NCBI RefSeq assembly: GCF_000226295.1
Contig: NC_016024.1
Span: forward strand, 479,501-543,500
Direction: 5' to 3'
DNA: 64,000 bases
Source of the DNA: Chloracidobacterium thermophilum B
GTDB taxonomy: Bacteria; Acidobacteriota; Blastocatellia; Chloracidobacteriales; Chloracidobacteriaceae
The notes below the pieces were generated by a model. It was given only the letters and a program-made list of their open reading frames with translations, ran no database searches and had not been told where the DNA came from. A program made the translations under genes and the position numbers. Of this stretch, positions 52,874 through 64,000 are shown piece after piece (the first letter of the stretch is position 1; every line of letters begins with the position of its first letter).

Positions 52874-55084
52874 ATGTCGAACCTACCCCCCACCTCATCG
52901 GAATTCGCTTATGAAACAGCTTATGCTGAGGCTCTGGAAGCCGCACTCGCCGGTCAGCCAGCGCTGCCGTCCTTTTTTGAGTCTTGGGAAGCTGACGCCT
53001 GGCCGCCGGCGGCTGACCTCATCCGCCTCCACACCCGGCTTCTTCAGGGGCGGGATGATGTGGCCCAGGAGCGCGCCGCATCGTTTCTGGCCGAGGTTCT
53101 GGCGCAGTACGACGCGCGGTATGCCGCCCTCCGGGAAGACTTTGCCTCCCTGGAGCGGCTGACCAGCGTCGGAACATGGAAGTACGATGTCCAGCGTCAA
53201 TACCTGTCATGGTCAGACCGGGCGCTGGCCGAACTGGAGATGTCGCGGGAAGAGACTGTGACAGACATAAACCTGGGTATCGCACACTTCGTTCACCCGG
53301 ATGACCGGGAACGGGTTGCTGCTGCTTATGCCCGTACCGTGGCGGAAGGGGCGGAACTCTTCCAGGAGTTCCGCTTGCTGCATCCCACGCAGGGGGTGCG
53401 CCATCGGCAGTGCCGTGGCGAAGCGCGTCGCGATGCCGCCGGGCAGGTGACGCAGGTGTTCATGGTTTCACGGGATGTGACCGAGGATGTGGCCTACCGG
53501 GAACACATCCGGTTGCTTGAAGCCGTTCTGGACAACATCCACGATGCCGTGCTTGTGACCGAAGCCGAGCCGATTGATCCGCCCGGGCCGCGGATTCTCT
53601 ACGTCAACCGGGCGTTTGAGCAGATGACGGGCTACACGGCGCTCGAAGCCATTGGGCAGACGCCACGCATGCTCCAGGGGCCGGAAACCTCGGCGGAAGC
53701 CCGCGCCCGGATTCGGCAGGCGCTGCAAAACTGGCAGCCCATCACGATTGAACTCATCAACTACCGCAAGGATGGCCACCCGTTCTGGTCCGAGCTGGCG
53801 ATTGTGCCGATTGCCGATGAGACCGGCTACTACACCCACTGGGTGGCCGTCCAGCGCGATGTGACCGAGCGCCGCCGCATCGAAGCCCAGCAGCGCCAAC
53901 GCTCCCGGCTCGAATCCGTGGGGCAGTTGTCGGCCGGGATTGCCCATAACTTCAACAATCTGCTCGCCATCATCCAGGGGTACGGCGAAATGATCCGCCG
54001 GGATGTCGCTCATTCCCCGCAACTTCTGCGCCGCCTGGAAAGCATCCTGCGCGCCGTCAGGCGCGGAAGCGAACTCGTTCAGGAACTCATGGTGTTTTCA
54101 CGCCAGCGCGACGGGCAGCCCCAGATACTCGACGTATGCCGCGCCGCCCAGGAAGTGCTCGATATGGCCCGTCGCCTGCTTCCCGCCGAAATCGAGGTGG
54201 ATGATCTGTCTCTGGCGTCGCTGACCGGCGAAAGTCTCCTGGCCCATCTCGACGCCAGCCGCTTCTCGCAGGCGCTGCTCAATCTCATCCTCAATGCGCG
54301 CGACGCCATGCCGACCGGTGGGCACCTGACCGTCACCGTCGGGCAGCAGACCGTCACCAACGCACTCACGCAGTTGACGGCGCGTGTCGTCTATGCCCAC
54401 CCGCCGGAGCCGGGCGACTATGTGTTCGTGAAGGTGAGCGATACAGGTGTGGGGATGGATGCCGAGACCCAGCAGCGCATCTTCGAGCCGTTTTTCACGA
54501 CGAAAGAGGTGGGTCGGGGCACCGGCCTGGGGCTGGCAACCGTCTATGGCTTTGTGGGTGAAAGCCGCGGCTTCATCACGGTGGATTCAGCTCCCCGGGA
54601 GGGCACGACCATCGGGCTGTTCTTTCCACTCGTGCAAGGCACGCCGGCGGCTGAAGAAGCTTCGGGTGAGGTGAAGCTGCTCTCGGCTCTGCTCCCCGCA
54701 GATGCCACGGCGCTGATCGTTGAGGATGAAGCCGAACTGGGTGCGTTCCTGTCCGAAACGCTCTCGGACATGGGCTTCAAAACGGTTCACCACGTGCAGG
54801 ACGGCGCGGAAGCCATTCCACTGACCAAACGCCTGGGTTCACCGCTGGCGCTGGTTGTCACTGACCGGTCGCTGCCGCACGTGACAGGGCCACAGATCAT
54901 AGCGGAGTTGGCAAACCGTGGCCTGTGTGAACGGTTCCTGCTCATCAGCGGGCTGCCGGGGCAGGAAGACCTGCCGGAACTGCCGCCCGGCGTACGGCTT
55001 GAGCGGCTTCAGAAGCCCTTTTCCGTGAAGCAGCTCTATCGGGCGGTGCAGGGGTTGTTCCGGCCGACAGGTGCGCCTTCCTAA
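52874..55084 (+). CDS. Hybrid sensor histidine kinase with two PAS domains and receiver
   Basis: 736 aa, no transmembrane segment, so a cytoplasmic sensor. Order: helical N-terminus (1-95), PAS1 (about 97-200), PAS2 (about 215-335) with FEQMTGYTALEAIGQTPRMLQGPET and FWSELAIVPIADETGYYTHWVAVQRDVTER typical of LOV-like or PAC folds, H-box H358 (AHNFNNLLAII), HATPase (about 440-600) with DTGVGMD and GTGLGLATV, and a C-terminal receiver with phosphoacceptor D664. The PAS2 core lacks the photoactive Cys I would expect in a LOV domain (NCR/GRNCRFLQ), so light sensing is not supported. No response-regulator gene is adjacent. Confidence 0.94.
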   Translation: MSNLPPTSSEFAYETAYAEALEAALAGQPALPSFFESWEADAWPPAADLIRLHTRLLQGRDDVAQERAASFLAEVLAQYDARYAALREDFASLERLTSVGTWKYDVQRQYLSWSDRALAELEMSREETVTDINLGIAHFVHPDDRERVAAAYARTVAEGAELFQEFRLLHPTQGVRHRQCRGEARRDAAGQVTQVFMVSRDVTEDVAYREHIRLLEAVLDNIHDAVLVTEAEPIDPPGPRILYVNRAFEQMTGYTALEAIGQTPRMLQGPETSAEARARIRQALQNWQPITIELINYRKDGHPFWSELAIVPIADETGYYTHWVAVQRDVTERRRIEAQQRQRSRLESVGQLSAGIAHNFNNLLAIIQGYGEMIRRDVAHSPQLLRRLESILRAVRRGSELVQELMVFSRQRDGQPQILDVCRAAQEVLDMARRLLPAEIEVDDLSLASLTGESLLAHLDASRFSQALLNLILNARDAMPTGGHLTVTVGQQTVTNALTQLTARVVYAHPPEPGDYVFVKVSDTGVGMDAETQQRIFEPFFTTKEVGRGTGLGLATVYGFVGESRGFITVDSAPREGTTIGLFFPLVQGTPAAEEASGEVKLLSALLPADATALIVEDEAELGAFLSETLSDMGFKTVHHVQDGAEAIPLTKRLGSPLALVVTDRSLPHVTGPQIIAELANRGLCERFLLISGLPGQEDLPELPPGVRLERLQKPFSVKQLYRAVQGLFRPTGAPS

Positions 55085-55833
55085 ACCACAAGCCGCAGAC
55101 CGTCATAGGCCAGCCGGACACCCGGCGGCAGACGGGCGTCCAGTTCGGCGTGGCGGATGTCGTGCGCCATGTGCGTGAGGTAGGCGCGTTTGGGTTGCAG
55201 CCGGGCAATGTAGGCCAGCGCCGCATCGAGGTGCAGATGGGTGGGGTGCGGCTTGTAGCGTACGCAGTCGAGCACCAGCACTTCCAGCCCCAGCAGTTGT
55301 TCACAGGCGGCATCGGGAAGGGCGTTGCAGTCGGTGATGTAAGCGAAGTTTTCGAGGCGGAAGCCGAGCGTCGTCATGTCGCCGTGAGGCAGTGCCACTG
55401 GTGTGACATGCAGACCGCAGAGGGTGAAATTGCCGCCGATGATGTGAGGCACCAGCCGCGGACGGCTCGAAGGCCCAGCCGGGCCAAAGGCGTAGCTGAA
55501 CATGCGGTACAGGTTGTGCCACGTTTCGGCGCTGGCAAAGCATGGGATAGCGCCCTGGCGGTAGTTGAGGGCGCGCAGGTCGTCCATCCCGAACACGTGG
55601 TCGGCATGGGCGTGGGTGATGAGGACGGCATCGAGCGACTTCAACCCGGCGCGCAGCGCCTGCTGGCGGAAATCAATCGAAGGGTCAATGAGTATCTGCG
55701 CTCCCTGATGGCGGACAAGTAGTGAGACGCGCAACCGGCGGTCGCGTGGATCGTCCGAGGTGCAGGTGGGGCAGTCGCAGCCAATCATCGGGATGCCGAC
55801 GGACGTGCCAGTGCCAAGAAATTCGATTTCCAT
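55081..55833 (-). CDS. MBL-fold metallo-hydrolase, PhnP-like
   Basis: 250 aa. GTGTSVGIPMIGCDCPTC at the start and HAHADH (74-79) followed by GMDDLR are the signature of PhnP-type phosphodiesterases (cyclic ribose-phosphate cleavage) and related MBL enzymes. Cys residues in the N-terminal block (C19, C21, C24) could bind zinc as in PhnP. No phn genes are nearby. Its stop overlaps the kinase stop by 4 bases. Confidence 0.92.
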   Translation of the reverse strand: MEIEFLGTGTSVGIPMIGCDCPTCTSDDPRDRRLRVSLLVRHQGAQILIDPSIDFRQQALRAGLKSLDAVLITHAHADHVFGMDDLRALNYRQGAIPCFASAETWHNLYRMFSYAFGPAGPSSRPRLVPHIIGGNFTLCGLHVTPVALPHGDMTTLGFRLENFAYITDCNALPDAACEQLLGLEVLVLDCVRYKPHPTHLHLDAALAYIARLQPKRAYLTHMAHDIRHAELDARLPPGVRLAYDGLRLVV

Positions 55834-55926
55834 CGTTTTGCGGATACTTCAGTGTGTGCATCGGATGGGGGCGCGCCGGTCAACAATACTCTCCGGAAGG
55901 GACGGAAAAAACTGGTTGAAAAGAAA

Positions 55927-55960
55927 CTGGCGGCCGGAAAACCGGCCGCCAGCGGTTTTT
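55927..55960. terminator. Rho-independent terminator after the FecR-domain gene
   Basis: Arms CTGGCGGCCGG (55927-55937) and CCGGCCGCCAG (55942-55952) with a 4-base loop. On the minus strand it is followed by TTTCTTTT, so it ends the gene stopping at 55977. On the plus strand CGGTTTTT follows, so it may work both ways. Confidence 0.85.
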
Positions 55961-55976
55961 GGTGGGTCCGGCGTCG

Positions 55977-57467
55977 TTACTCGACAACCGGGCTTTGGGT
56001 GCGGGTCTGGCCGTCGCCGCCGGAGCGTACCGGGGCGGCCGGGCGCAGTCCGCCGCCGGGCGCGGGACTGATCCCCGGTCCGGCATCGCCGCCGTAGCCC
56101 CCACGCAGGATTGAGCCGCCGTAGTCAGGCGTCATGCCACCGCGCATCATCCCACCGCGCATGGGGAGGTCGTAGCCGGGCTTGCCGAAGCCGCCGTCAT
56201 CGAAGGTGGGACGCGCCACCGGCGAGGGCAGTTCCCGGCGCGGCAGGGCCGGCAGGTAGTCATCATCCCCCAAGTTGGCTGCCGGTTGCAGTGACGGTGT
56301 AAGCGGTGGACGCGGTGTTGGCGTAAGCGGTGGACGCGGTGTTGGCGTAAGTGGGGGGCGCGGTGTTGGCGTAAGTGGTGGGCGCGGTGTTGGTGAGGAT
56401 GTCTCCCCCAGAGAACCATCACCGGGTGCCGTTGGCTCGATAGGTGTCTCGCCCGGTGCGGCCGGCTTTCCAGCCAGCTGTCCGGCAACCGTACCGGGAC
56501 CATTCATCGGCGCAGTGGGCGGCGCTGGATTGAAGAGTGTGGGGCGGTACATATCCCACGGCAGCCCCCAGTTCGTGCCGTAGGCAAAGCCGTAGGGTGA
56601 GTTCCAGTAACCGTAAAACGGAAAGAACGTGTAGCCACCCAGCCGGGCATCAAAGAGCCAGAGACCGAAGAAGGGCGCAAAACCGAAGCCATACGCGCCA
56701 TTCTGCCGCCAGCCGTTGAACGCCGCCAGTACGTCCCGGTCGCGCAGGCGGGCGTTGGCATCCCGCAGGGTCTTGGCGCGGTTGCGGCTCCATTCATCGA
56801 AGGCATCACGGTCTTTTTTGTCGAGCTTGGCCGTTGTCACCGCCGTGGCATCGAGGGTGACAAGCTGCTTGTCCTTGACCGGCAGCGAGCGTCCGGCCTG
56901 CTCGACGGTAATCCGTCCCTTGGTCACGGCCACCATCGGTGCGCCTTCCCGTGGGACGGTCACGCGGTACAAACCGTTCCGCACGACATTCACCGTGCCA
57001 TTCGGCGTGATGATACGCAGCAGAAGTTCCGTGCCATCGGTCCCGGTGACTTCAAACAAGGCACTCCCGGAGATGACTTCCACTGCCAGCGCGTCGAGGT
57101 TGGGGTTGGTCATGACGATTTCCCCGTCATAATCCAGGCGCAGGTAGGAGCCGGGATTGAGCAGGATTTCAGCCCGCCCATCAGAACTTGTGCGTAGCCG
57201 ATCACCCGTCTTAAGACGGTCGCCGAGACTGACGCCGCGCCAGGTGTCCGGGGTTTTGGCCCGGCTGCTTGTGACCGTACCTTCGATGAAGTTGATCGTG
57301 CCGGCCTTAGCCGAAACGATGAACTGTTCCGGCAGGCTCACCGTGTTGGCGCCGCGGATGGGGACTTCCGTCGTTGGCGCCTGGGGGGTCGTTTGGGCGC
57401 TGACGGCGGTTGCGCTGAACGTCCAGGCACCAGCCAATAACGTCAGTGTGAGAATAGATCGCTGCAT
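55977..57467 (-). CDS. Exported FecR-domain protein
   Basis: 496 aa. Signal peptide ends near AVSAQ; GGAGG lies 10 bases before ATG 57467. A FecR-like beta domain (about 40-220) follows, with GVSLGDRLKTGDRLRTSSDGRAEILLNPGSYLRL as its core; FecR domains in such proteins often sit in periplasmic or anti-sigma-related contexts. A helical middle and a Tyr/Phe/Gly-rich segment (FAPFFGLWLFDARLGGYTFFPFYGYW) follow. The last third is low-complexity Pro/Gly, with a 24-bp repeat encoding TPTPRPPL. No sigma factor gene is adjacent. Confidence 0.85.
   Translation of the reverse strand: MQRSILTLTLLAGAWTFSATAVSAQTTPQAPTTEVPIRGANTVSLPEQFIVSAKAGTINFIEGTVTSSRAKTPDTWRGVSLGDRLKTGDRLRTSSDGRAEILLNPGSYLRLDYDGEIVMTNPNLDALAVEVISGSALFEVTGTDGTELLLRIITPNGTVNVVRNGLYRVTVPREGAPMVAVTKGRITVEQAGRSLPVKDKQLVTLDATAVTTAKLDKKDRDAFDEWSRNRAKTLRDANARLRDRDVLAAFNGWRQNGAYGFGFAPFFGLWLFDARLGGYTFFPFYGYWNSPYGFAYGTNWGLPWDMYRPTLFNPAPPTAPMNGPGTVAGQLAGKPAAPGETPIEPTAPGDGSLGETSSPTPRPPLTPTPRPPLTPTPRPPLTPTPRPPLTPSLQPAANLGDDDYLPALPRRELPSPVARPTFDDGGFGKPGYDLPMRGGMMRGGMTPDYGGSILRGGYGGDAGPGISPAPGGGLRPAAPVRSGGDGQTRTQSPVVE
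56299..56394 (-). repeat. 24-bp tandem repeat, four copies, in the FecR-domain gene
   Basis: Units begin at 56299, 56323, 56347 and 56371. They encode TPTPRPPL on the minus strand. Copies 1 and 2 are identical; 3 and 4 differ at a few bases. The repeat number could vary between strains. Confidence 0.9.
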
Positions 57468-57615
57468 ACCCAGAAACCTCCGTGGGGTGGATGGTTGCGT
57501 CTTCCGGAAACGATGGCGTTTTCCAGCGTAGGCGTTGTAAGCGATATTCCGACGCGGTTGCGGAACATTGGATGCGGTGTTACACACTGTGGCACAAGAA
57601 GCCGGACACATTCAA

Positions 57616-57646
57616 GCCGGGCCGGCCGGAATGGCTTCCGCCCGGC
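57616..57646 (-). terminator. Possible weak terminator after the SDR gene
   Basis: GCCGGGC (57616-57622) and GCCCGGC (57640-57646) can pair over 7 bases around a 17-base loop. On the minus strand only TTGAATG follows, so termination would be weak. Confidence 0.3.
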
Positions 57647-57666
57647 GCGCTGCTCTCTCTTCCCAG

Positions 57667-58434
57667 CTATCGGGCAAGCAGTCCGCCGTCCACGACGAGA
57701 TTGATGCCTGTCACCCAGCCGGCCTCTCCGGAGGCCAGATACAGAGCGGCGTAGGCAACATCTTCCGGGCGGCCCAGGCGGCCCAGGGGATAGCCGGCTT
57801 CAAACTCGCGCCGGCGGGCAGCCGGGTCGGGCGCGTCATCAATAAGCTGCCGGTTGCCTTCGGTCGGGACGAAGCCGGGTGAGATGCAGTTGACGCGGAT
57901 GCCGTCGCGCCCGTAGCGCACGGCGAGGGATTTCGTCAGCGTCACCAGCGCGCCTTTCGAGGCGGCAAAGGCCGGCGAGGCGCCCGCCCCGCCCTTGACG
58001 CCCAACAGGCCGGCAATGTTGATGATGCAGCCCTGCCGCTGCGCCTGGAAGTGCGGTATGGCGTGCCGGGCATAGAGAAAAGCGCCCCGGACGTTGACAT
58101 CGAAGGTCATCTGCCAGTCGTCATCCGTGGTGGCTTCGAGGCTGACCCGGCGGTTGACGCCGGCGTTGTTGACGACCACATCCAGCCGCCCGTAGCGGTC
58201 GAGCGTTGCTTCCAGACTGCGCCTGACATCGGCTTCCTGGGTGACATCCGCCTGGATGTGAATCGCCTGCCCGCCCATCAGCGTCAGGTGGGCAACGGCT
58301 TCCTGCCCGGCCGACAGTCGCCGCGACACAATCGCCACGCGCGCGCCGACTTCGGCAAACAGTTCGGCGATGGCACGTCCGATGCCACTGGAACCGCCGG
58401 TGATGAGGGCTACCTTGCCGTCGAGCCGGAACAT
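57667..58434 (-). CDS. SDR-fold protein lacking the catalytic Tyr and Ser
   Basis: 255 aa. Rossmann nucleotide motif TGGSSGIG (12-19) and NNAG (89-92) show a classical short-chain dehydrogenase fold. In the active site the usual YxxxK reads FAASK: F156 replaces Tyr while K160 remains. The Ser expected near 142 is Gly (NIAGLLG). The codon for F156 is TTT, so it is not a reading ambiguity. The protein may bind NAD(P)(H) without the normal catalysis or use other residues. It starts 3 bases after thiG in the thiS-thiG operon. Confidence 0.9.
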   Translation of the reverse strand: MFRLDGKVALITGGSSGIGRAIAELFAEVGARVAIVSRRLSAGQEAVAHLTLMGGQAIHIQADVTQEADVRRSLEATLDRYGRLDVVVNNAGVNRRVSLEATTDDDWQMTFDVNVRGAFLYARHAIPHFQAQRQGCIINIAGLLGVKGGAGASPAFAASKGALVTLTKSLAVRYGRDGIRVNCISPGFVPTEGNRQLIDDAPDPAARRREFEAGYPLGRLGRPEDVAYAALYLASGEAGWVTGINLVVDGGLLAR

Positions 58435-58437
58435 GGG

Positions 58438-59223
58438 CTACGGACGCGAACCGATCAGCCCGTCGAGGGGACTGCTGGCGCTGGCGTAGAGGCGGCGCGG
58501 CATCCGTCCGGCCAGATAGGCCATGCGCCCGGCTTCAATGGCGTGTTTCATGGCAGCAGCCATCAGCGGCGGATTCTGGGCCGTGGCAACGGCGGTATTC
58601 AGCAGTACGCCGTCCATGCCCATTTCCATGGCAATGGCCACGTCGGAAGCCGTACCGACGCCGGCATCCACGATAATCGGCACGTCGGTGATCATTTCGC
58701 GCAGGATGCGCAGCGTCGTGAAGTTCTGAATGCCGAGGCCCGAACCAATCGGGGCCGCCAACGGCATAATGGCGGCGGCGCCGGCGTCTATGAGTCGCCG
58801 TGCTGCCACGAGGTCATCGTTGAAGTAGGGCAGTACGATGAAGCCTTCCTTCGCCAGGACGCGGGTGGCTTCGATCAGTCCGGCATTGTCGGGAAAGAGG
58901 GTTTTTTCGTCCCCGATGACTTCCAGCTTGATCCACGGGGTGTCCAGGATTTCACGGGCAAGCCGGGCCGTGCGGATGGCTTCCTCGGCGGTGTAGCATG
59001 CGGCCGTGTTCGGCAGGATGAGCATGCGGTCGAGGTCGAGGTAGTCCATCAGCGAGCCGGCCGAACGGTCGGCCAGGTTGACGCGCCGGACAGCCACCGT
59101 GACAACTTCCGCCCCCGACGCGCGGTGTGCGGCGCGCATGGTCTCCAAATCAGGATACTTGCCGGTGCCGATCATGAGCCGTGAACGAAAGGTACGGCCG
59201 GCAATCACCAGGTTGTCTGTCAT
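58438..59223 (-). CDS. thiG: Thiazole synthase
   Basis: 261 aa TIM-barrel enzyme that makes the thiazole phosphate of thiamine from deoxyxylulose phosphate, dehydroglycine and ThiS thiocarboxylate. Conserved blocks are [11 protein letters not shown], the Schiff-base Lys K99 in [21 protein letters not shown] and [11 protein letters not shown] 59223 was chosen because the open frame before it runs through the repeat region. It follows thiS after 139 bases that hold REP-like repeats. Confidence 0.97.
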
Positions 59224-59269
59224 AGGGTTTGTTCCCAAGTGTGGGCAGGGTGGGGTACCAAAAGCTCCC

Positions 59270-59342
59270 GCGGGCGGGACGCCCGCGCTCCCAGGTAACG
59301 CGCTCCCAAGTAAGCGGGCAGGATGCCCGCACTCCCAAGTAA
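59270..59342. repeat. REP-like repeats in the thiS-thiG spacer
   Basis: Two 29-bp copies, 59270-59298 and 59314-59342, match at 25 of 29 bases; all differences are transitions. Each contains GCGGGC...GCCCGC, able to form a hairpin, then a CTCCCARGTAA tail. Partial copies flank them (59300-59313 and 59343-59358). They may be members of a dispersed repeat family in this genome. Confidence 0.8.
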
Positions 59343-59362
59343 GAATGCCCGCGCTCCCGGGG

Positions 59363-59566
59363 TTATCCGCCTCCGACGAAGTGGACAATCTCAATCCGGT
59401 CGCCCTCTTCCACCGGAATGTCCGCCCACCTGGGCCGCGGTGCTAGTTCACCGTTGCGTTCAATGGCAATCCGCCGGGCATCCGTGAAACCAAGCCGGGC
59501 GACCAATTCGGCCAGGGTCGCCGGTTCCGAAAGCGTTTGATATTCTCCGTTGATGGTGACGGTCAT
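59363..59566 (-). CDS. thiS: Sulfur carrier protein ThiS
   Basis: 67 aa ubiquitin-like protein that carries sulfur as a C-terminal thiocarboxylate to ThiG. It begins [12 protein letters not shown] and ends VHFVGGG, so the essential C-terminal Gly-Gly is present. ATG 59566 was chosen on family length. A ThiF-type adenylylating enzyme is not in this window. Confidence 0.95.
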
Positions 59567-59591
59567 GGGTGCAAAGAGCAGCAAAGAAAAA

Positions 59592-59626
59592 CGGTTTCGG
59601 CGACACCAAACATTACGCCGAAACCG
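59592..59626 (-). terminator. Rho-independent terminator after the peptidoglycan-binding gene
   Basis: CGGTTTCGGCG (59592-59602) and CGCCGAAACCG (59616-59626) form a perfect 11-bp stem; on the minus strand TTTTTCTTT follows. It separates the 59682 gene from thiS. No thiamine-riboswitch sequence is apparent in this interval. Confidence 0.88.
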
Positions 59627-59681
59627 CTGTGGTTTTCAAACCGGTCACATCACCCAACCACCCAGGTGACGATGGCTTGGG

Positions 59682-60065
59682 CTATGACTGTGGCCCCGTC
59701 GGGTTGCCTTCCTCTTTCTTTTTGACTGGCGGCTTGCGCTTGGGAAGTCCCATTTTCTCGCGGGTTTCATTGTTGAGCGTGCCGGTCACTTTGAGACCGT
59801 TCTGCTCCTGATACTTGCGCAGCGCCTCGGTGGTTTCGGGGTTCTTGTAGCCGGTGATCTCGCCCTGGTACAGGCCAGCGTCCTTGAGCATCTGCTGGGC
59901 CTTGCCGTAATCAGTGTTGGGATTGTTGGCGCGGGGTTTTTTCTTCTTTGGCTTGGCGCTTTCTTCAGCCGCCGGGGCTTCCTGGGCCGCGGTGAAGGTC
60001 GGGCTGCCAAAGCCGGTCAGGATGAAGGCGGTCAACAGAGCCAGAAGCAGGGATTTGCGTAACAT
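59682..60065 (-). CDS. Small exported peptidoglycan-binding-domain protein
   Basis: 127 aa. AAGGAGG lies 8 bases before ATG 60065. Signal peptide to about residue 27, a Lys-rich linker (KPKKKKPR), then a peptidoglycan-binding-1 domain: DYGKAQQMLKDAGLYQGEITGYKNPETTEALRKYQEQNGLKVTGTL. A Lys-rich tail follows. No catalytic domain is attached, so it probably serves as a wall-binding or adaptor protein. Confidence 0.88.
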   Translation of the reverse strand: MLRKSLLLALLTAFILTGFGSPTFTAAQEAPAAEESAKPKKKKPRANNPNTDYGKAQQMLKDAGLYQGEITGYKNPETTEALRKYQEQNGLKVTGTLNNETREKMGLPKRKPPVKKKEEGNPTGPQS

Positions 60066-60123
60066 CGAAGAATCCTCCTTGGGGTGTAGAAATCCAGATG
60101 AAGTGTCCTGACAGTTGAAACCG

Positions 60124-60669
60124 TCAGGGGTTGAAAGGTTGATAGGCTGATTCAGGTGGCGGGTCCACACTCGGCAACGCCACGAGAATCATTCCGGTCT
60201 GCCGGCGCGTCACCGTCGCGCGCAGGCGGTAGCGAAAGCGCCGACAGCGGCGCGCCTGGCTTGGGAGCGGGTCGGCGTCGAGCGTAAAGCCCGCCGCATT
60301 GGCTTCAAAACGCAGGCTGTAGCCGTACCAGCCATCGCCAATGACCTCACTGGCGGCAACCCCGTCCAACCGACGCTCAAAACCATCCAGCAGACCCAGG
60401 TGGTCAATAAGCTGTTCCCATGTGCCGAACCGCCCGTGCATGGCATGGTGCGCCGTTTGGGCCGTGACCATCGTCTGGATGTTTTTGACCGCCCGCTGTT
60501 CAGCCACGACCACCACTACCCACCGGTAGGCCAGAACGGACAGCGCCAGCAGGATGCCAAGGATGGCCACAGCCACGAGCAGTTCAACGGCACTGGCCCC
60601 ACGCGCCCGAACCCGGCCGCGGGCACCACCAAGTCCCGTGCAAAAAATACGGCGCTGCCCACGCTGCAC
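60124..60669 (-). CDS. Type IV pilin-like / pseudopilin-like protein, isolated
   Basis: Class III prepilin signal RG/ASAVELLVAVAILGILLALSVLAY, with Glu at +5, followed by a long helix and a mixed C-terminal domain. I chose GTG 60669, which has AGGTGG 6 bases upstream; the open frame reaches TTG 60744, so the start is uncertain. The prepilin operon at 25629-33307 is far away; this protein could be a minor pseudopilin of the same system or of another. Function unknown. Confidence 0.75.
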   Translation of the reverse strand: MQRGQRRIFCTGLGGARGRVRARGASAVELLVAVAILGILLALSVLAYRWVVVVVAEQRAVKNIQTMVTAQTAHHAMHGRFGTWEQLIDHLGLLDGFERRLDGVAASEVIGDGWYGYSLRFEANAAGFTLDADPLPSQARRCRRFRYRLRATVTRRQTGMILVALPSVDPPPESAYQPFNP

Positions 60670-60800
60670 CGGCACCCACCTGAAACCCTGGATGGAAATG
60701 TTTGTTGGGGCGCAATGGTAACGAAGGGGAAATACCGGAAACAAGCCTGAATCCTGCTGGTGAGAGGTACTTTCGGGCTGTGGCGCAGCCGCCGGTCTTT

Positions 60801-61730
60801 TCAGTCCCGCCCAACCAATGGGGGCAGCGGCGGAAGGAAGAAGATGAGGCGGCGCTGGCGCAGGTCGAAGGCAATACGGAAGGGGCGCAGGGCGTCACGC
60901 CCAAGGAGAAGGGGCGTTGCAGGGTCTGTGCCGTGCAGCAGGTCGGTTGGGATGCGTTCCAGGTACAATGGCTCCAGCCGGACACTCACCGGTGACACCC
61001 GCGTGACTTGGAGTGTGCGACCTGTGATGTCCCGCAGGCGGCGCGCGGCGACCGGAATCTCGGGCTGGATGCCAAAGGCCGCCGCTTTGGAAGCCGGAAT
61101 AGCCAGCCCAAAACCCGAACCCGTGTCAATCAGGGCCGGTTCCCGGCCGTTGAGCGCCACGAAAGGACGCTTTCCGCCCGCTTCGGGCAACCAGCGCACG
61201 ATCGTTCCTCCCAGGGTCCGCTGGGGTATTAGTGGGGCCAGCGTCCGGTTGGGAAAGTCAAGTTCGTAGCCAGTGTCTCCAAAAACTTCGGTTGGATCGA
61301 GAATGCCATCCACATCGGGCGGCAGCGTCTCCACAACGACCAGGCGCCCGACGCAGGGCAGCCGGTTGTTGCGCTGTCCAAGCGCCAGCGTTTGGGCCGT
61401 CACCAGACGGTGGATGTGCCCTGCACCCGCGCCGGTGCCTTGGAGACGCAACGTGCGGCCGGTTTCGCGTACGCCAGCGCGTGCCGCCGTACGGGGCGAC
61501 AGCAGGGTAAGTCCGGCACCGGTGTCCAGCACAAACGTAAACGGCCCGGCGTCGTTGACCCAGGCCGTCACACACAGGCCGCGCCGGTCTTCCTGCCAGA
61601 TGACCGGCGCGGGCCGATACGTGGTATTTCGTTTTGGTATGGCTGCCAGGGGCAGACTTGCCTGGGTCAGGATGACTAACCAGGCGCACCACAGAGGCTG
61701 TAAACGGATGAAGAACGTCAGCCGTGACAT
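60801..61730 (-). CDS. Exported two-DTG aspartic protease-like protein
   Basis: 309 aa with signal segment (residues about 10-30) and GAGG 6 bases before ATG 61730. Two retropepsin-type motifs are present in one chain: FVLDTGAGLTLLS (D69) and LIDTGSGFGLAIP (D202), about 133 residues apart, each followed by hydrophobic strands and LLGRDAL near the end. This matches aspartyl-protease-family lobes paired in a single chain, a pepsin-like arrangement. Activity is inferred from the motifs only. Confidence 0.87.
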   Translation of the reverse strand: MSRLTFFIRLQPLWCAWLVILTQASLPLAAIPKRNTTYRPAPVIWQEDRRGLCVTAWVNDAGPFTFVLDTGAGLTLLSPRTAARAGVRETGRTLRLQGTGAGAGHIHRLVTAQTLALGQRNNRLPCVGRLVVVETLPPDVDGILDPTEVFGDTGYELDFPNRTLAPLIPQRTLGGTIVRWLPEAGGKRPFVALNGREPALIDTGSGFGLAIPASKAAAFGIQPEIPVAARRLRDITGRTLQVTRVSPVSVRLEPLYLERIPTDLLHGTDPATPLLLGRDALRPFRIAFDLRQRRLIFFLPPLPPLVGRD

Positions 61731-61791
61731 TCTTTACCTCCCGTTGGCTGGTTTTCATCCACGTCGTATCCTGCCCGTCCCCGGCCATGTA

Positions 61792-62370
61792 TCAGTTGCG
61801 GGGACGAAGACCGTAGATGTACAGCGCTGTGCCGCCGCCCCCGGCCAGAGCCCCGGCGGCAGCGCCGCGCTTGCCCCCGGCTATCGCGCCCACTCCGGCA
61901 CCGAGACCGGTACCGCCGGCAATCGTCACGACATCCCGCCCGTTGCGCTGCCACCAGGACGGCTGCCGCCGGGCCGCCGGGGCGTTGTCATAGTTGTAAT
62001 AGGCGCGCTGGCTGTTGACCGGCGCACGCCCCGTCCGTCGGTTGCCATTCTGGCGTACCTGTCTGACCGGTGGGTTGTCCTCCACGGCCGTCGGGGCCGG
62101 TTGCGCTGGTGTCGCGGCTGGCGCTTCCTCTGGAACGAGGCGATAGGTCTGCCCCTGAATCTGCACCCTACCTTCGGCTGGCAGTAACGGCTGGGCAACC
62201 GGTGTCTGCACCGGGAGGACCAGCGGCGCGGATGCCGGCGCTGGTCCAGAAACGGGCGGAAAGCCGGAACGGGTCAACAGCGCACCCGCGCCGCCGCCTG
62301 CCAGAAACATAGCCAAAGCCCCGGCCGTGAGCTTGAGTGTATGGGGATGTTTCAGCCAATTGAAGTCCAT
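61792..62370 (-). CDS. Exported or membrane-associated glycine-zipper protein
   Basis: 192 aa; GGAGG lies 7 bases before ATG 62370. An N-terminal hydrophobic segment (TLKLTAGALAMFLAGGGAGALL) may act as anchor or signal. Pro-rich middle; the C-terminal Gly-zipper (GTGLGAGVGAIAGGKRGAAAGALAGGGG) resembles glycine-zipper proteins that insert in or associate with membranes. No enzymatic motif. The palindrome at 62612-62627 lies about 240 bases upstream. Confidence 0.78.
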   Translation of the reverse strand: MDFNWLKHPHTLKLTAGALAMFLAGGGAGALLTRSGFPPVSGPAPASAPLVLPVQTPVAQPLLPAEGRVQIQGQTYRLVPEEAPAATPAQPAPTAVEDNPPVRQVRQNGNRRTGRAPVNSQRAYYNYDNAPAARRQPSWWQRNGRDVVTIAGGTGLGAGVGAIAGGKRGAAAGALAGGGGTALYIYGLRPRN

Positions 62371-62696
62371 GGAGAGTCCTCCGTCGTCGGTCAAAAGATG
62401 CTTGGGGCGTCAACCTCGACAACTGGAAGGACAAACACCGTGCCACGCCAGCACGTCAGACCGGAAGCAAGGCACCGGGAAGCTGTGAAAACCGGGCTGG
62501 AAAATACTTTGTTCCGTCGTTTTTCCGGTTTTTTCAGTCTTGCCCGTTTGTTGCCTGCCTTCAGCCTGTCCACAGCAGGGATTGCGGGGCCCGTGTCTGG
62601 CCGTGGTGAGGTACACGATTTCGTGTATGACACCGAGGCACGTACTCCAGTTGGTGCAGATGAACAAGGGCAGGGAAAGACTCCGGTCGGGGGACT
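62371..62696. other. Long intergenic region with a palindrome, no gene supported
   Basis: 326 bases between the glycine-zipper gene and rapZ, both on the minus strand. The only structured element I see is the 16-bp palindrome at 62612-62627. T-rich runs (near 62517-62540) are present. Any frame in this interval is short and without known motif. Confidence 0.65.
62612..62627. promoter_or_regulatory. 16-bp palindrome, candidate operator (copy B)
   Basis: TACACGA-TT-TCGTGTA: 7-base arms and a TT centre, matching the form of the palindrome at 12943-12958 (shared consensus T-R-CACG-M-TT-K-CGTG-Y-A). It is upstream of the glycine-zipper gene on the minus strand, past the rapZ stop. Confidence 0.4.
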
Positions 62697-63596
62697 TCAC
62701 TTGGCAATGTCGCGGTGCCGGACGCGCACGGGAAAACGCAGCTTGCGGACTTCTTTCGCCAGTGCCTCGGCCATCATCACCGACCGGTGTTTGCCACCCG
62801 TGCAGCCAATGGCAATCGTGAGGTAACTGCGTCCGTCGCGCGCATAGCGCGGGACGACAAAGGCAAGCAGTTCCGCAAAGCGGTTGCGGGTTTCAACCAC
62901 TTCTTCGTCAGCGAGCAGGAAATCGGTAACGGGCGCGTCCCTGCCGGTCAGGGGGCGCAGTTCGGGAACGTAGTGGGGGTTTTTGAGAAAGCGTACATCG
63001 AGCACCAGATCGGCTTCCGTCGGGATGCCGTGTTTGAAACCAAAGCTCAGCAGCAGGACGCGCATGCGGGCCGTCTGCCCGGCACCGAGGGCTTCTCCGA
63101 GCTGGCGGCGGAGGTCGTAAATGGTCAACCCGGAGGTGTCAATGATGCGGTCGGCGAGTTCGCGGACCGGCGCCAGCAGCGTCCGTTCGGCCTGGATGGC
63201 GGCGCGGAGTCCGCGCGTGTGGCGGTTCGCCGTATCCAGCGGATGCGGGCGGCGGGTTTCGCTGTAGCGGCGCATGAGCACGTCGTCAGTGGCTTCAAAA
63301 AACAGCAGCCGGACGTGGCTGACGAGTTCACGCAGCCGCGTGTAGGCCGCCGGAAAGGCGGCGACAAAAGCCGGTTCCCGCGCATCCACCACGACGGCCG
63401 CGCGGGACAGTCCGCCTTCCGAACGGCGGCACAGTTCGGCAAAGGTCGGCAGCAGCGCCACCGGCAGGTTGTCCACACCAAAGTAGCCCAGGTCTTCCAA
63501 GGCATTGAGCGCCGACTGTTTGCCGGAACCGCTTAGTCCGGTGATGACCACAAAGTTTGGCGGCGCAGGCGGGGGAGACTTGGGGCGACGCGGCAT
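62697..63596 (-). CDS. rapZ: RapZ-family (YvcJ/UPF0042) nucleotide-binding protein
   Basis: 299 aa. P-loop GLSGSGKQSALNALEDLGYFG at 20-40 and the C-terminal block GCTGGKHRSVMMAEAL identify the family, which in E. coli binds GlmZ RNA and controls glucosamine-6-phosphate synthase; in Bacillus it is a nucleotidase-like GTPase. I start at ATG 63596: an earlier ATG at 63716 lies inside the terminator hairpin of the upstream gene and cannot be a real start. Function in this species is inferred from family. Confidence 0.92.
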   Translation of the reverse strand: MPRRPKSPPPAPPNFVVITGLSGSGKQSALNALEDLGYFGVDNLPVALLPTFAELCRRSEGGLSRAAVVVDAREPAFVAAFPAAYTRLRELVSHVRLLFFEATDDVLMRRYSETRRPHPLDTANRHTRGLRAAIQAERTLLAPVRELADRIIDTSGLTIYDLRRQLGEALGAGQTARMRVLLLSFGFKHGIPTEADLVLDVRFLKNPHYVPELRPLTGRDAPVTDFLLADEEVVETRNRFAELLAFVVPRYARDGRSYLTIAIGCTGGKHRSVMMAEALAKEVRKLRFPVRVRHRDIAK

Positions 63597-63691
63597 CACG
63601 AATCCAAAATGGCCGGCCGGGCGGGGAATCAGCGTGCTGGCCACATCCTGTGTCGTGCCAGCCACATTGGGCAAGGTGCCGCCAACAAAAA

Positions 63692-63724
63692 CGTTCGGGA
63701 TGCCTCTGAAAGGCATCCCGAACG
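63692..63724 (-). terminator. Rho-independent terminator after the NuoI-like gene
   Basis: CGTTCGGGATGCC (63692-63704) pairs with GGCATCCCGAACG (63712-63724) over 13 bases with a 7-base loop; on the minus strand it is followed by TTTTTGTT. It separates the NuoI-like gene from rapZ. Confidence 0.93.
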
Positions 63725-63751
63725 GCGTGACTGGCAGTGTTACGTTGGGTT

Positions 63752-64000
63752 TCAGTTCAGTTGGCGTCCGTAGCGGACGATTTCCCGTCCCTTTTCGAGC
63801 TGTTCGCGGTCCCAGACCATGCCGGCCCGGTTGTAGCTGGCCAGCTCAAACTCCTGAGTCAGCTCGATGCAGTCGGTCGGGCAGGCTTCCACGCACAGGT
63901 CGCAGAACATGCAGCGCGACGTGTCATAGACATAGGTGGCGAGAACTTTCTTCTTCTTCGGCTTGCCGTCTTCCATGACCACGCGGTTGACAGCGCCGAC
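63752..64000 (-). CDS. NADH-quinone oxidoreductase subunit I-like 4Fe-4S protein, C-terminal part
   Basis: The frame runs off the window's right edge; only the last 82 residues are seen. It has the cluster motif CMFCDLCVEACPTDCIE and the end LATYVYDTSRCMFC-type context of the second 4Fe-4S site in NuoI. NuoI carries two clusters that relay electrons in complex I, but the first cluster lies outside the window. A strong terminator follows. Confidence 0.85.
   Translation of the reverse strand, partial: VGAVNRVVMEDGKPKKKKVLATYVYDTSRCMFCDLCVEACPTDCIELTQEFELASYNRAGMVWDREQLEKGREIVRYGRQLN

Follow-up and report, generated by a model that had tools for sequence, protein, structure and literature searches.

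The window, as we call the whole stretch of 64,000 nucleotides analysed here from Chloracidobacterium thermophilum B (genome of 3,695,372 bases in two contigs), carries a gene for a short-chain dehydrogenase (SDR) behind the genes thiS and thiG, on the same strand (Table 1). The SDR gene is an intact ORF with an ATG start and no internal stops, and it begins 3 bases past the stop codon of thiG, so that the close spacing reported in the initial annotation is confirmed by the coordinates. A FecR-like gene lies on its other flank. Between the aligned portions of thiS and thiG lie about 150 bases in the window versus about 55-85 bases in the six congeners. A search of positions 54000-64000 for Rfam elements gave no match at gathering score, and promoter and terminator scans of positions 57400-60200 gave nothing above shuffles.

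Table 1. Features of the thiS-thiG-SDR locus, in window coordinates
Feature	Position	Strand	Basis or remark
Tyr-less, Ser-less classical SDR (255 aa)	57667..58434	-	ORF, Pfam, NCBIfam, AlphaFold2
K160 codon (aaa), catalytic Lys, retained	57955..57957	-	alignment
F156 codon (ttt), at the catalytic Tyr column	57967..57969	-	alignment
G142 codon (ggc), at the catalytic Ser column	58009..58011	-	alignment
N114 codon, catalytic-tetrad Asn, retained	58093..58095	-	alignment
TGGSSGIG glycine-rich cofactor loop, residues 12-19, intact	58378..58401	-	alignment
thiG	58438..59223	-	PF05690, 8.2e-109; probable start ATG at 59223, inferred (Pfam match begins at residue 64 of a longer ORF)
GC-rich repeat between thiS and thiG	59274..59293		20-base pattern, 41 times in the genome (at most 1 mismatch), 0 in a reversed control
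thiS	59363..59569	-	TIGR01683, 78.4 bits (cut-off 37.45); start inferred as an ATG inside a longer TTG ORF

By Pfam the protein is a classical SDR (adh_short_C2, 1.5e-63), and by score it is a member of the NCBIfam glucose 1-dehydrogenase subfamily NF005559 (265 bits, curated cut-off 215), yet Gly and Phe stand where the catalytic Ser and Tyr should be. The other hallmarks of a classical SDR are present, namely a predicted Rossmann fold of ~250 residues, adh_short/adh_short_C2, the TGxxxGxG and NNAG motifs and the tetrad Asn, and the departure is confined to the catalytic Ser and the YxxxK motif, of which only the Lys is retained. The glucose/gluconate dehydrogenase-type SDRs (NF005559; PDB 7djs, 1vl8 and 1gee) resemble it in length, fold, cofactor loop, NNAG, Asn and Lys, at 37-40% identity and a TM of about 0.93, but they have both the Ser and the Tyr. 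Since this pair is absent, the NCBIfam name 'glucose 1-dehydrogenase' is probably wrong for the SDR of the window. An AlphaFold2 model built from 40 aligned sequences was confident (mean pLDDT 95.7, pTM 0.94), and the best PDB matches of the predicted structure were dehydrogenases and reductases with a TM of about 0.9.

The reading of F156 for Tyr and G142 for Ser, with the Lys and the cofactor loop intact, had been proposed in the initial annotation and is borne out by the ORF and by an alignment of 54 rows. The motif register is clear, because Ser, Tyr and Lys occupy columns 142, 156 and 160 in all 40 comparison rows, i.e. the 54 rows minus the orthologs of the query and a Tyr-less KduD-like clade; the rows were chosen by hand, and 12 of the 19 paralog loci of the genome itself, some of them deviating at catalytic columns, were excluded. 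In all, 45 columns are conserved in 85% or more of these 40 chosen other SDRs, ten of them being invariant, and 142 and 156 are the only invariant columns at which the genus deviates. Among the other 35, the genus deviates uniformly at 11 (Ile, also in the sister genera) and 129 (Phe), with five further columns deviating in some members. When 18 paralogs from the same genome were read by tblastn (a further one, L017, gave no alignment at the cut-off used), Tyr was found in 15, and Phe (KduD-like), Val and Met in one each, while 12 had Ser. In the tblastn counts one non-genus locus, L058, was scored as Gly142 through gap placement where MAFFT gives Ser, and for this reason the Ser column was read from MAFFT.

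The genus, taken here as the genomes with the same genus label (7, including that of the window) and identified as Chloracidobacterium by named matches, has G142, F156 and K160 in all seven members. At E <= 1e-60 an ortholog was present in 9 of the 10 family genomes and absent from the tenth, G007, and orthologs with 89-91% protein identity were found in two Chloracidobacterium MAGs and one uncultured Blastocatellia MAG. The two sister-genus orthologs are 58% identical and carry A142 and Y156. A class-wide search of 162 genomes added one genome at 1e-55, G022, whose protein is 45% identical and has Ser, Tyr and Lys; of the 80 loci kept from a scan of genome contigs, 3 belong to the genus and have Phe, while all the other 77 have Tyr and Lys. 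The initial annotation had named orthologs with Tyr and Ser at these positions as the observation that would speak against it, and half of this was found, in that the sister-genus orthologs do have Tyr156 but their residue 142 is Ala, not Ser.

A sequencing error, a misaligned motif or a decaying pseudogene could in principle produce the same picture, but nothing in favour of any of these was found. With identical residues in seven genomes, the clear register, no internal stops and low Nei-Gojobori dN/dS values against the six congeners (0.034-0.083; ThiG, 0.017-0.053), an artefact of this kind has a practically negligible chance of being the answer. A dN/dS of 0.03-0.08 speaks against both sequencing error and gene decay, and since the sister orthologs have the Tyr and lie away from thiG, the genus seems to have undergone a derived loss.

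The order thiS-thiG-SDR is found in 7/7 genus genomes with 2-3 bases between thiG and the SDR, whereas the FecR-like gene on the other side was found in only four of the seven stretches, that of the window included; in G005 and G006 it is 63-67% identical. We examined 36 thiG loci, consisting of 10 from the family and 26 more among the best 30 loci of the class (149 of 158 class genomes matched), and the seven with an adjoining SDR are all from the genus; no SDR match stood beside thiG at the 29 non-genus loci, within ~1.5 kb of flank per side (718 and 755 bases downstream in two of them). Likewise the thiS-thiG pairs of G007, G008 and G009 have no adjoining SDR. Conservation in other genomes, which the initial annotation had asked about, therefore holds for both the substitutions and the linkage inside the genus, while the linkage was not seen at the 29 loci examined beyond it. 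Because the sister orthologs keep Tyr156 and do not adjoin thiG, both the loss of Tyr and the linkage to thiG appear specific to the genus. A pilin-like gene, a gene with a peptidoglycan-binding domain, thiS and thiG follow one another both in the window (59363-60744) and in G007 (L145, genes named from translations), and as G007 shares this order with no SDR behind thiG, the arrangement upstream seems to predate the linkage of the SDR to thiG.

These comparisons bear on one account of the linkage, in which an SDR with a function outside thiamine metabolism was placed next to thiG in an ancestor of the genus and does no more than share a transcript with it. The orthologs of the two sister genera are found at other sites (L116:6479-7246 and L117:6405-7172), near psd, pssA and genes for a PLP aminotransferase and an acyl-CoA carboxylase-like protein (names from translations), and thiS-thiG do without an SDR in both sister genera and in G007. 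The thiazole route moreover already has ThiO. Against this account is the spacing of 2-3 bases, kept in all seven genomes although the FecR-like gene on the other side was found in only four. On balance we give it an even chance. It should be noted that this account is about the pathway to which the SDR belongs and leaves its catalysis aside, and it is compatible with an SDR that has become a pseudoenzyme.

The thiazole precursor is usually supplied by ThiO, which was above cut-off in 10/10 family genomes and ThiH in none of the ten, so there is no missing thiazole step that would call for an SDR, and the idea that the SDR replaces ThiO or ThiH was discarded. In the part of PMC4376005 available to us, C. 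thermophilum showed no obvious effect on growth over four serial transfers lacking a mix of 13 vitamins that included thiamine, with the proviso that peptone may have been present. From the presence of ThiO and this growth, the thiazole route looks able to run with no SDR step. The initial annotation had also raised a new redox step in thiazole synthesis, for which little support was found, given ThiO throughout the family, 29 of 29 non-genus thiG loci with no SDR match, and no need for thiamine seen in C. thermophilum. Its other suggestion, a cofactor-binding regulator, may be right, the cofactor motifs being intact. It is gene order alone that suggests a role of the SDR in thiamine synthesis. 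Our search of open-access papers, as far as their text was available, found none linking thiG, an SDR and the thiazole, and no paper on Chloracidobacterium and a short-chain dehydrogenase turned up in the open-access literature.

What the protein may do depends on how the missing side chains are read. In standard SDRs the Lys holds the nicotinamide ribose. As described in the accessible portion of PMC4988501, the part of acid/base falls to the Tyr, while the Ser assists in holding the substrate. With Phe and Gly at these places, the SDR of the window is unlikely to carry out ordinary alcohol/ketone chemistry. It could nevertheless be an active NADP(H) enzyme with a reaction independent of Tyr and Ser, such as an ene-reduction, or a substrate-assisted reaction in which a substrate hydroxyl or Lys160 transfers the proton. 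The cofactor loop is intact, Lys160 and Asn114 are in place, and SDRs that naturally have no Tyr are on record: isopiperitenone reductase is an ene-reductase with Glu in its place (PMC4988501, in part), and eugenol synthase has no Tyr but keeps the Lys, the hydroxyl of a bound inhibitor taking up roughly the position that a Tyr hydroxyl would otherwise occupy (PMC1991597, from the sections available). These precedents, however, rely on an acidic side chain or on a phenol in the substrate, whereas the SDR of the window has Phe and Gly, and its sequence, the sole basis of this judgement, shows no evident acid replacing Tyr156. Two residues of the loop, K147 and S153, were considered as alternative catalytic residues and set aside; both sister orthologs, which have the Tyr, share K147 and have Thr at position 153. 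According to the part of PMC6003104 seen, vitrosamine synthase, an SDR believed to act as an iminium reductase, no longer gave its main product when the Tyr was replaced by Ala. Nor is the active-site core specially conserved in the genus. We thus consider a still-active enzyme rather unlikely.

The conservation of the core was compared through the positions that vary within the genus. For the SDR of the window, 17 of 72 positions vary in the catalytic and cofactor core and 41 of 183 in the rest. Extra conservation of the active site, as a sign of ligand binding, had not been found with a first choice of core that included residues 184-216 either (23/105 vs 35/150, p 0.88), these residues being dropped from the definition once control paralogs were added. 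The Tyr-containing paralog L009 has the usual pattern (core 14/71, rest 68/168, p 0.002), and the comparison is suggestive of a constraint that no longer centres on the active site in the SDR of the window. This argument is weak, because L003, a Tyr-containing paralog compared in 5 genomes (17/68 vs 54/169, p 0.35), and the KduD-like SDR (9/70 vs 34/179, p 0.27) are likewise without significant conservation of the core.

The interpretation towards which we lean, as a somewhat probable one drawn from sequence and predicted structure, is that the SDR is a pseudoenzyme with respect to carbonyl/alcohol redox, which would bind NADP(H) and act through binding. Gly stands for the catalytic Ser in the genus, where the sister genera have Ala, and Phe stands for the Tyr, with the Rossmann core, the glycine-rich loop, the ribose-holding Lys and the SDR C-terminus retained, and the protein most likely still folds like an ordinary SDR. 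Arg38 and Arg39 after beta-strand 2 suggest NADP as the nucleotide, and the protein would then be a nucleotide-responsive or structural partner, not a catalyst; we infer its loss of activity and its co-transcription with thiS-thiG, as we do any effect on ThiG or on thiamine synthesis. In favour of the pseudoenzyme are the disappearance of both catalytic side chains from all genus genomes under a dN/dS that is low and near that of ThiG, the restriction of change to two of the ten invariant columns with a confidently predicted fold, and a protein identity to the five more distant congeners of 88-92%, above the 79-83% of the Tyr-containing L009 in the same five. The spacing to thiG, constant though the FecR-like gene is not, points the same way, as does a core no more conserved than the rest, which is what would be expected if constraint had left the active site. 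Against it, a pure scaffold would have no need of Lys160, Asn114 or the cofactor loop, yet all three are retained; against a partnership with ThiG stand the non-genus thiG loci, all 29 of which lack an SDR match.

A pseudoenzyme of this fold has precedent. In the heterotetrameric dehydrogenase BbsCD, the BbsC subunit is an inactive pseudoenzyme, and its active partner subunit is encoded beside it. It resembles the SDR of the window as an SDR-fold protein retained with no working active site, but differs in that its active SDR partner adjoins, whereas the neighbours here are thiG and the FecR-like gene. MAT2B, NmrA and HSCARG are SDR proteins proposed, in the part of PMC3793261 available, to regulate by sensing NAD(P), and the likeness would be in a Rossmann fold that senses NADP and tunes another enzyme or factor; MAT2B, however, carries an extra sugar-type domain and still has the Ser, the Tyr and the Lys, whereas the SDR of the window, a classical one, is without the first two. 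MAT2B has been speculated to act in such a manner on SAM synthetase, and by analogy the SDR might serve ThiG as a regulatory subunit that binds NADP(H) and reports the pyridine-nucleotide state to thiazole synthesis, having dropped its own chemistry. We regard this more specific proposal as improbable.

The genome holds other SDRs that lack the Tyr. The KduD-like SDR (L002, G000:C2:137814-138560; L175:17803-18564) scores 321.4 bits against a KduD cut-off of 338.85 and has Phe for Tyr in 7/7 genus genomes and Leu in the partial sequence from the sister genome G007, with Tyr in 23/23 other class loci examined (among the best 30 loci; 71 of 158 genomes had a match). In the five Tyr-less rows of the alignment, one Gly of its cofactor loop is replaced by Glu. 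A common Tyr-less origin for this SDR and that of the window was ruled out, as they fall into separate supported clades that require a minimum of two state changes (in the 54-row tree of chosen rows, with 12 of the 19 own-genome paralog loci excluded), and with the two losses independent, the SDR Tyr would have been lost at least twice in this lineage. Another SDR-like match, L006 (G000:C2:127764-128495), has neither Tyr nor Lys at the usual columns and is possibly of the dienoyl-CoA reductase type, in which the Tyr is placed elsewhere.

SDRs that are naturally without the catalytic Tyr are rare; one published alignment of more than 500 SDRs contained only four further Tyr substitutions, as far as PMC4988501 was available. 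The genus and its sister genera offer a natural series, from Ser/Tyr in other SDRs through Ala/Tyr in the sister genera to Gly/Phe in the genus, in which the loss of catalysis and its replacement by another function can be tested. If the link to thiG is functional, it would represent a novel way of controlling thiamine synthesis.
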